42,702 nucleotides of DNA, taken from NCBI GenBank assembly GCA_903870315.1, contig CAIQCJ010000001.1, positions 1 to 42,702 of the forward strand. Direction: 5' to 3'. Numbering within the stretch: the first letter of the stretch is position 1; every line of letters begins with the position of its first letter. A model generated the notes under the pieces. The model had not been told where the DNA came from, did not search any database, and saw only the letters and a list, made by a program, of their open reading frames with translations. This stretch comes from an uncultured bacterium. GTDB taxonomy: Bacteria > Patescibacteriota > Minisyncoccia > Phycocordibacterales > PALSA-1337. Position numbers and translations under genes: made by a program. Positions 20,661-26,771 of the stretch are shown one piece after another.

Positions 20661-21650
20661 CTAGCGCAAATAAGACTGTCTTTCAAGGCGCGACGTCACC
20701 TCTCCTATCAGATTCTCATCTGATGTGAATATAAGGCGGTTGTTGTCTAGGAATGAATATAGAAACGCCACACCACCATTGTCAGTTACAAATTCGCGGA
20801 TATCCTTGTTACTTATATTTTTATCTATAAATCTGCCATGTATTGCTAGATAGTTTGGATTATATCCGGTTGTTGTTTTGCCGCCAGTTGATGAAAAATC
20901 AGTCACAGGAGCTGTTGTCGGAGGTACTATGTATTTTTTGATATCATCAGCCATCACACTCTCCCACTGCAGCATTCCTGCAAAAGCATTTTGATAGAAA
21001 TTATCGCTCACCATAACGAATATGCTTTTTTGTCCTTGATTATTAGCGTATTCTCCTATCATCCACTCATTATTCAAGGATCTGAAAAGAATATCAGGCA
21101 TATTTATGCCAAGATTTATTATAAGGGTCTGGGCGGGTATATTTCCTGTCTGTACGGTTTGATTTTTGTCTGTAGAGGTTGATGTGGTCGTAAGTAGGAT
21201 TTCTTTTATTGTTCCAGGTTTCTGGTCTTTTGCCAGCTCAGCCATGATCTGTGTTTGTGTATTTAGAGGATCATTTATGTTGATGGGTATGTTTACTTTC
21301 AAATCAGTCGGTATCAGGACATTTTTCTGAGCAGTATTTGCTATTGGTATGGATGTTGGGGCAGAATTTATACTATAAATGTAATACAATCCAAAGATAC
21401 CACCGACTATAAAGATAAGACTTGATATTACAATCAGTGATTTTTTCCAAGAATTTGACCCACCTTCATCTGGGAGATTTGAGATAACTGACTGACCGTT
21501 TTTCTTATTACTCTCAGCCAGAGCAATTGTAAACGCTGATGTATTTCTTTTGGCCAATATTTCAGCCACGTCTCCTTCATAAGTACGTAGAGATTTGGCG
21601 GAAGGGTTTTTACTATCTGTTTTTTGAGGTTGAAGCTGATTTTCTTCCAT
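20661..21650 (-). CDS. Hypothetical single-pass membrane protein
   Basis: Cytoplasmic ~70 aa, TM (SLIVISSLIFIVGGIFGLYYIYSI), extracytoplasmic domain. Confidence 0.65.
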   Translation of the reverse strand: MEENQLQPQKTDSKNPSAKSLRTYEGDVAEILAKRNTSAFTIALAESNKKNGQSVISNLPDEGGSNSWKKSLIVISSLIFIVGGIFGLYYIYSINSAPTSIPIANTAQKNVLIPTDLKVNIPININDPLNTQTQIMAELAKDQKPGTIKEILLTTTSTSTDKNQTVQTGNIPAQTLIINLGINMPDILFRSLNNEWMIGEYANNQGQKSIFVMVSDNFYQNAFAGMLQWESVMADDIKKYIVPPTTAPVTDFSSTGGKTTTGYNPNYLAIHGRFIDKNISNKDIREFVTDNGGVAFLYSFLDNNRLIFTSDENLIGEVTSRLERQSYLR

Positions 21651-21712
21651 ACTTTATATTATAGCCGTATTTCATAAAAATTGTAATATTTGTTTTGATA
21701 CATATATCTTTT

Positions 21713-21754
21713 TTTAAAAAAAATACATCGTCATCTCTACTAGACGATGTATTT
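21713..21754 (-). terminator. Intrinsic terminator
   Basis: 12-bp stem AAATACATCGTC/GACGATGTATTT followed on the minus strand by a T-run. Confidence 0.8.
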
Positions 21755-21809
21755 CTACCTAGCATGTTTTGGTAAACACGCCAGGCTATTCAGTTGTAAT
21801 AATTGGTTC

Positions 21810-21980
21810 TCAGATAGTCTTACAGTGTCTCCTTGATCGTTTGTTGTTAATCTTAACAACACCACGAACGAGCATATCATTCACGAAGATGGTCGTTTTG
21901 GCGCTATCGTGATGAGTGAGTTTATCTATTCTCGCTACTAGATCGCCTAGTGTTAGCGAGCGTCCTTTTCTCCTTGGCAT
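21810..21980 (-). CDS. 56-aa basic small protein
   Basis: MPRRKGRSLTLGDLVARIDKLTHHDSAKTTIFVNDMLVRGVVKINNKRSRRHCKTI*; AGGGGG SD-like sequence upstream, strong terminator downstream; below the ORF-track size cutoff. Confidence 0.55.
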   Translation of the reverse strand: MPRRKGRSLTLGDLVARIDKLTHHDSAKTTIFVNDMLVRGVVKINNKRSRRHCKTI

Positions 21981-22096
21981 AACTACCCCCTTTTACTTTG
22001 CTTGTGTTCTAAGACCAAGTACAAGTCTTACACATCGAAATTTTACAGTCAACACCTGATCTGTGTCCCCCGGCTTAGTCTTTATATGGTCTCCTA

Positions 22097-25194: not shown

Positions 25195-25464
25195 TTATTT
25201 AGCTCTAAGTTCCAACTTCTTTGTGATTGAAGAATAGCGGCGAGGATAGTTTTTCTTGAGATAAGTCAAATGAGTCTGACGATCAGCAACCATACCAAGC
25301 AAACCACGACGTGAGTGGTTATCTTTTTTGTGTTTCTTCAAGTGGTCGGTTAATTCTGTAATTCTCTTAGTCAAAATAGCGACCTGAACCTCTGGAGAAC
25401 CAGTGTCCTTGGCATGAATAGCTGTTTCCTTGATAACTTTCGTCTTTTGTCGTGTTGTTAACAT
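25195..25464 (-). CDS. rpsO: 30S ribosomal protein S15
   Basis: [55 protein letters not shown]. Confidence 0.96.
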
Positions 25465-25473
25465 TGTGGCAAT

Positions 25474-25483
25474 ATCATAGCAC
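25474..25483 (-). promoter_or_regulatory. Extended -10 element of rpsO
   Basis: Minus strand GTGCTATGAT, with TTGCAT 17 nt upstream; last T is 10 nt from the A of ATG. Confidence 0.5.
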
Positions 25484-25512
25484 GAATGAGGTTTTGATGC
25501 AAATTTGATATA

Positions 25513-25561
25513 GAAAAACCCCCCAACTGGTTATAGAGATTGTAAGTCTCCCAGTCAGGGG
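25513..25561 (-). terminator. Intrinsic terminator upstream of rpsO
   Basis: Minus strand CCCCTGACTGG...CCAGTTGGGGGGTTTTT with nested GAGA/TCTC. Confidence 0.65.
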
Positions 25562-25690
25562 TGCGGGTCGTTCCAGTATAGTTTTTGTTTTCTGTGAACG
25601 ATCTCAAAGGAGATTCGGATAGTAATCACTGGCCCGCTCAGCTAGTTCGGTTCTTTCATTGGTTGTCCTCCGGTTCTTTTGGTACGTTAT
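25513..25690 (-). ncRNA. Candidate structured small RNA or leader with terminator
   Basis: Minus strand: GGAGG-7 nt-ATGAAAGAACCGAACTAG; helix GCGGG-CCAGT...ACTGG-5 nt-CCCGC; hairpin ATCTC-AAAG-GAGAT (plus-strand orientation); ends CCCC...GGGGGGTTTTT; TTGACA upstream. Confidence 0.5.
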
Positions 25691-25748
25691 CACCATAATA
25701 TAATACTGTCAAGTATTCTTTATTCTTGTACTAACTTACAATATAGTT

Positions 25749-26771
25749 ATGTCGCACAATATTTCTCCAACCAGTTCCCCTATCTCAGATCTCAAACAGC
25801 AGTTTCTAGAATATGTAGAGATAGAAAAGGGGCGTAGTCTGAAGACTGTTGAGAACTATGATCGCTACTTGAGCCGTTTTCTGGAGCACACGAAGATAAA
25901 AAGTCCAAGCGATATCAATGATGGTGTTGTTCGTGAATATCGTCTATGGTTAAATCGTCAAGAAACCCGTAGTCAAAAAGGTTTGTCTCAGACGACACTA
26001 AAGAAAAAGACCCAGAACTACTACATGATCGCTCTGCGTGCATTTTTGAAATACATGGCACGTATGGATGTAAAATCTATGTCCCCAGACCGTATAGAGC
26101 TTGCCAAGATACCAGAACGCTCTTTAGATTTGATTTCAATAGATGAGCTTGGACGTCTCTTGAACGCACCAGATACAGACACTTTGCGTGGAGTGAGAGA
26201 CAGGACAATAATGGAGTTACTTTTTTCTACAGGCTTGCGTGTCTCTGAGCTCTGTTCTCTTCCTCGTGATATAAATCTTAATCTCGATGAGCTTTCTGTA
26301 CGTGGTAAAGGCGAAAAAGTCCGCGTAGTGTTTCTCTCTGAAGAGTCGAAAAAATGGCTCAAAATATACCTAGATAAGCGAGATGATATGGATGACGCGC
26401 TTTTTGTGCAGATTTTTGGTAAGGATAGTAATGGTAAAGGTACTAGTCAAACGGGGGTAGTAAAAAAAGTCTCGAATTTAGAGAAAAATTCTCCAAAACT
26501 TGCTATAAATAGAGATTCCCTACGCCTTACTTCTCGTTCTGTCGAACGTATCGTGAAGCAGTATGCTATTAAGGCTGGTATTTCAAAGAAAGTCACCCCT
26601 CACATCATCCGCCACTCATTTGCTACAGATCTTCTGCGCAACGGTGCTGACTTACGTTCTGTACAGATGTTGCTCGGTCATGCAAATATAGGCACAACAC
26701 AAATCTATACTCATGTGACAGACAGTGAACTTAGGCGTGTACACCAAAAGTTTCACAGTAAAGGTAAGTAA
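25749..26771 (+). CDS. xerC: XerC/XerD-like tyrosine recombinase
   Basis: LLFSTGLRVSELCSL; HIIRHSFATDLLRNGADLRSVQMLLGHANIGTTQIYTHV. Confidence 0.93.
   Translation: MSHNISPTSSPISDLKQQFLEYVEIEKGRSLKTVENYDRYLSRFLEHTKIKSPSDINDGVVREYRLWLNRQETRSQKGLSQTTLKKKTQNYYMIALRAFLKYMARMDVKSMSPDRIELAKIPERSLDLISIDELGRLLNAPDTDTLRGVRDRTIMELLFSTGLRVSELCSLPRDINLNLDELSVRGKGEKVRVVFLSEESKKWLKIYLDKRDDMDDALFVQIFGKDSNGKGTSQTGVVKKVSNLEKNSPKLAINRDSLRLTSRSVERIVKQYAIKAGISKKVTPHIIRHSFATDLLRNGADLRSVQMLLGHANIGTTQIYTHVTDSELRRVHQKFHSKGK

Follow-up and report, generated by a model that had tools for sequence, protein, structure and literature searches.

A putative small transcription unit with a five-codon reading frame between a Xer recombinase gene and rpsO in a Patescibacterium

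What lies between the divergent genes for a Xer recombinase and ribosomal protein S15 (rpsO) in a Patescibacterium, and does it belong to rpsO or stand apart from it? The question arises in a genome of 656 kb, assembled in 41 contigs, whose nearest relatives with named records belong mostly to Candidatus Taylorbacteria and Nomurabacteria. The window referred to throughout is the whole stretch of this genome that was analysed, 42,702 nucleotides in length. A preliminary description of it had pointed to a structured RNA upstream of rpsO and offered three identities for it: a leader-peptide attenuator, an S15-autoregulatory leader, or a free-standing small RNA. The last of these fits, and is better put as a free-standing transcription unit with a mini-ORF, since the RNA appears to have its own promoter and its own terminator. 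The elements of the locus, in window positions, are listed here.

25749 to 26771, plus strand: divergent gene for a Xer-family tyrosine recombinase (PF00589; XerA-like by NF040815, above cutoff)
25684 to 25712, minus strand: predicted promoter of the small unit, TTGACA at 25712-25707, a 17-nt spacer, then TGA-TAACGT (−10 at 25689-25684)
25667 to 25671, minus strand: Shine-Dalgarno sequence GGAGG, 7 nt ahead of the ATG
25642 to 25659, minus strand: mini-ORF of five codons, ATG AAA GAA CCG AAC TAG (MKEPN*)
25563 to 25640, minus strand: moderately structured body with a GCGGG/CCCGC closing helix and internal hairpins (−18.4 kcal/mol, z −2.3 when folded alone)
25514 to 25561, minus strand: predicted intrinsic terminator CCCCUGACUGG...CCAGUUGGGGGG-UUUUU (hairpin scan and fold)
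25474 to 25502, minus strand: predicted rpsO promoter, TTGCAT at 25502-25497, 17 nt, then an extended −10, TGC-TATGAT, at 25479-25474
25195 to 25464, minus strand: rpsO, ribosomal protein S15, near-leaderless, with its ATG at 25464 (Pfam PF00312, TIGR00952)

The TTGACA box, the GGAGG, its 7-nt spacing and the MKEPN* frame were all found on the minus strand where the preliminary description had placed them. The small unit that they open, with an RNA of ∼165 nt, sits between the divergent Xer gene and rpsO. We propose that RNA polymerase would start at the TTGACA promoter and make an RNA carrying a ribosome-binding site (RBS) and a tiny ORF, that transcription would stop at the strong intrinsic terminator just ahead of rpsO, and that rpsO would then be transcribed from a separate promoter. 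To this independent unit, ending before rpsO starts from its own promoter, we assign a probability of about three in four; it is most likely an unannotated, fast-evolving gene for a small peptide or an sRNA. The sequence and its comparison with relatives demonstrate two predicted promoters, a terminator, an RBS–ORF pair and an architecture that recurs in relatives; that the unit is actually transcribed and translated, and plays some role in the cell, we infer. Against this explanation, the −10 box of the unit, TAACGT, 17 nt past TTGACA, is poor, and the sequence of the unit is conserved in no other genome.

The promoter that falls between the terminator and rpsO was overlooked in the preliminary description. 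A distance of 9 nt separates its −10 box from the ATG, so that the rpsO mRNA is expected to have little or no leader. A promoter of this kind in the corresponding place was found in 73 of 81 rpsO loci (the window and 80 from the genome collection), compared with 0.4% of shuffled upstream regions. Across the 73 loci the distance from the end of the −10 box to the rpsO ATG is 6–12 nt, and it is exactly 9 nt in 41 of them. These data show an rpsO that, in this lineage, is predicted to have a promoter of its own and a nearly leaderless transcript. In many rpsO loci, furthermore, a structured leader would not fit, the Xer gene starting just 13–148 nt upstream. Given this near-leaderless promoter and gaps that are too short in many loci, the RNA is therefore not a leader of rpsO.

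Folding supports the terminator more clearly than the body. The preliminary description had proposed a GC-rich hairpin with a run of five T about 50 nt before the rpsO start, and this is present and far stronger than chance: the hairpin occupies 25561-25519, followed by T5, and reaches −21.3 kcal/mol (z −3.7), with 1 of 200 shuffles equally good. The structural signal of the body, by comparison, vanishes once the 5′ region is folded too (z −0.2). A long-range helix enclosing a 5-bp hairpin had also been suggested. All of its segments are present (GCGGG 25637-25633, CCAGT 25632-25628, ACTGG 25577-25573, then 5 nt, and CCCGC 25567-25563), as is the enclosed hairpin, AUCUC-CUUU-GAGAU. In the minimum-energy fold of the 78 nt 25563-25640 alone, the GCGGG/CCCGC part of the helix forms, but CCAGT does not pair with ACTGG, and CGUUC.CAG/CUGGAACG pairs appear instead. 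No alignable homologue of this body was found among 53 family genomes.

Searches against known families returned nothing for the unit in Rfam, Pfam or NCBIfam. The Rfam search of the window gave no match at the gathering threshold, and allowing E up to 10 gave two irrelevant families only. The preliminary description had not matched the RNA by eye to 6S, SRP, RNase P or tmRNA. The described S15-leader covariance model did not match the region, and the corresponding slots of selected relatives contained no RNA family in Rfam. No useful DNA homologue of the region was found in its own genome, in the 53 family genomes or among plasmids, nor was a second copy of the unit found in its own genome; three matches in an 18-mer scan of viral contigs were judged to be chance, the collection being very large and each match 18 identical bases long. 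Like the unit, the housekeeping RNAs named above are free-standing structured RNAs, but none of their families has a match here. A divergent tmRNA was rejected, as the real tmRNA (RF00023) is located on another contig (C20:11564-11925). RNase P RNA probably lies at C34:6735-7087, with a score below the cut-off, and SRP (4.5S) RNA, RF00169, had no match in the whole genome at E up to 1; a regular expression for the SRP core motif found none in the genome, this region included. A divergent form of either was rejected accordingly. For 6S RNA, not detected anywhere in the genome or in the region, the variation in length between units and the absence of a match ruled it out.

To place the unit in its lineage, we looked at the slot between xer and rpsO in the 44 family genomes with an identified S15. 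Ten of them (G000, G004, G016, G021, G026, G031, G032, G038, G043 and G046) hold a unit of the same architecture: a TTGACA-16/17-TGNTA promoter, an RBS with a short early-proline ORF, a hairpin terminator and the rpsO promoter. The gap is 13–148 nt, too short for a unit, in 28 genomes, and the slot is different or incomplete in the remaining 6. The ten were chosen by eye as long unit-holding gaps, ahead of the promoter test, and in 10/10 TTGACA-16/17-TGNTA falls in the first 60 nt of the gap, compared with 0.00015 per gap in dinucleotide shuffles. In G026, for which the gap was measured from the preceding gene, two other genes stand between the unit and xer, and the unit still adjoins rpsO. 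Immediately ahead of the rpsO promoter, nine units have a hairpin of −18 to −34 kcal/mol with a T-rich tail; in the tenth (L106) the hairpin lacks a T-run. A proline occurs at codon 4–9 in the ORFs of all ten, which is suggestive only, the ORF of each unit having been picked by RBS and position from what were, in some units, several candidates. ORFs of relatives in the same place read MNDPPM*, MVKNKDPTTHGLAN*, MNSPPN... (27 aa), MKDPS... (38 aa), MNAPPN... (38 aa) and MQRNTSTSPPR... (41 aa), among others. Across units the ORF ranges from 5 to 41 codons, and its distance to the terminator extends up to several hundred nt.

Between the two promoters, units of different species are unalignable. 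The one exception is a pair from different genera (L127 and L132), whose DNA is similar across the 5′ UTR and ORF (body p 0.005). As far as these comparisons reach, the content of the unit is almost completely changed from species to species in this group of Patescibacteria. Four-fold degenerate sites in xer are 27–55% identical, and four-fold sites of the window and L104 are 42% identical. With such sites saturated, unalignable bodies are expected of weakly constrained sequence and no special exchange mechanism is needed; cassette exchange was rejected on this ground.

Whether the unit encodes a peptide is best judged from its longer versions. In three longer ORFs of relatives GC3 exceeds GC1+2 (32/40 against 37/80, p 0.0003; 29/37 against 34/74, p 0.0009; 26/37 against 35/74, p 0.018). 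The peptides of L132 and L124, from two genera, are similar (shuffle p 0.0005, or 0.003 with the first six residues fixed). The relatives' peptides matched nothing in Pfam or NCBIfam, and no convincing paralogues of three of them were found elsewhere in the 53 family genomes. Taken together, ORFs of 27–41 codons in some relatives, the GC3 bias and the cross-genus similarity make it probable that a small peptide was encoded in this lineage. Across the wider family, the unit would most likely encode a peptide 14–41 aa long, with a proline or Pro-Pro near its start; with the ORF down to five codons in the window genome, what remains there would be either a peptide gene close to degeneracy or, by now, chiefly an RNA. 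A recent nonsense mutation was considered and set aside, because the peptides of relatives find no counterpart in the window frame past the TAG (p 0.83).

Several other explanations share parts of this evidence. An attenuator, in which a ribosome stalling on the proline ORF would set terminator read-through and so add to the output of the rpsO promoter, draws on the order of RBS and mini-ORF followed by hairpins and terminator, on the early proline of the ten units, and on the G026 unit staying beside rpsO. Leader/attenuators of the trp and ermC types likewise combine an RBS, a tiny ORF, hairpins and a terminator. They differ from the present locus in that rpsO downstream is near-leaderless with its own conserved promoter and has no need of read-through, and in that no mutually exclusive hairpins were found. 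By eye, in the sequence and the folds, the sole competition is from the 5-nt CCAGU, which could pair with the terminator arm (ACUGG), and the minimum-energy fold includes the terminator. This is no convincing antiterminator. With an ORF that varies so widely in length and in distance from the terminator, and a unit absent in most relatives, the attenuator proposal is left unsupported and is improbable. Very doubtful, too, is a broader suggestion of a hypervariable unit found family-wide next to the Xer gene and rpsO, in which promoter, RBS, early-proline mini-ORF and terminator are fixed while the content would be exchanged between species, and which would act as a proline-stalling ribosome sensor that feeds read-through to rpsO, or as a locus that Xer turns over like a cassette. 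Least probable of all is an S15-autoregulatory leader, in which S15 would bind the structured RNA and control rpsO. Known S15 leaders (Rfam; PMC4137082, PMC7247131) are also structured RNAs upstream of rpsO, and they are structurally diverse (PMC7247131, PMC4137082). The unit, however, lies outside the rpsO 5′ UTR, split off from it by the terminator and the rpsO promoter; it has no family match, the Rfam S15-leader model included, and most family genomes lack it, the gap being the short one in 28 of them. Moreover, the S15 regulators figured in PMC4137082 take the rpsO RBS and start codon into their structure, whereas the RNA here excludes both. The earlier suggestion of such a leader is thus contradicted by the predicted rpsO promoter, which lies downstream and leaves hardly any 5′ UTR.

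Two further readings differ from a peptide gene mainly in what they make of the ORF. That the unit is a noncoding regulatory sRNA, its mini-ORF incidental, is a possibility to be taken seriously but is not the one favoured: the ORF is just five codons long, the body alone shows some structure (z −2.3), the terminator is strong, and 6S RNA was not detected in the genome. On the other hand, the GC3 bias and cross-genus peptide similarity of relatives speak for coding, the units differ too much in size and shape for a single RNA family, and structural conservation was not measurable. A decaying remnant without present function, retained only to space xer from rpsO or to insulate them with a terminator, would account for the weak −10, the minimal ORF, a 5′ UTR shorter than in relatives and divergence that looks neutral (the 42% identity with L104). 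It is rather unlikely, as the strong terminator, TTGACA and GGAGG are all intact.

An independent small unit, which remains the preferred reading, resembles orphan small-protein or dual-function sRNA genes such as SgrS, which have a stand-alone promoter, a short ORF and a terminator. There is no sequence relationship to these, and the content of the unit is replaced almost entirely between species. No description of such a locus was found in the titles and abstracts searched. The result removes a tempting rpsO-leader reading, with the near-leaderless rpsO arguing against a conventional S15 leader, and points to an unannotated small-gene locus of Patescibacteria, missed by annotation pipelines, in which control signals would be kept while content turns over.

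Some minor observations were made at the locus and elsewhere. The start of the Xer gene (window 25749-25760) overlaps ATTGTGCGACAT. The sole full second copy of this motif that was found is within TTATTGTGCGACATGATACATAA in the same genome (C30:12674-12696; L152, L214); it has an inverted repeat of 8 bp, AGCTTTAT/ATAAAGCT, on either side and resembles a dif half-site. Allowing as many as 3 mismatches, a search of other family genomes for the C30 site gave no match. Near the xer start of some distant relatives (L043, L049, L083, L089) the motif occurs in inverted orientation. It may possibly be a dif site or a Xer autoregulatory site. Elsewhere in the window, an orphan-looking unit on the minus strand at 21650-22096 has a promoter-like TTGACT, an RBS, a strong terminator and a basic ORF of ∼60 aa that begins MPRRKGRSLTLGDLVARIDK, to which no named gene was assigned. 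A LOOT RNA, a described family (RF03000), scores 70.9 bits on contig C39 of the same genome (L191, 8815-8928), where it stands upstream of a small membrane-protein ORF. In the G026 assembly, the rpsO region is present twice (L105, L136), and the edge of the L105 contig carries what looks by eye to be the end of an IS30-type transposase upstream of rpsO, which suggests strain variation or an IS insertion at the slot.
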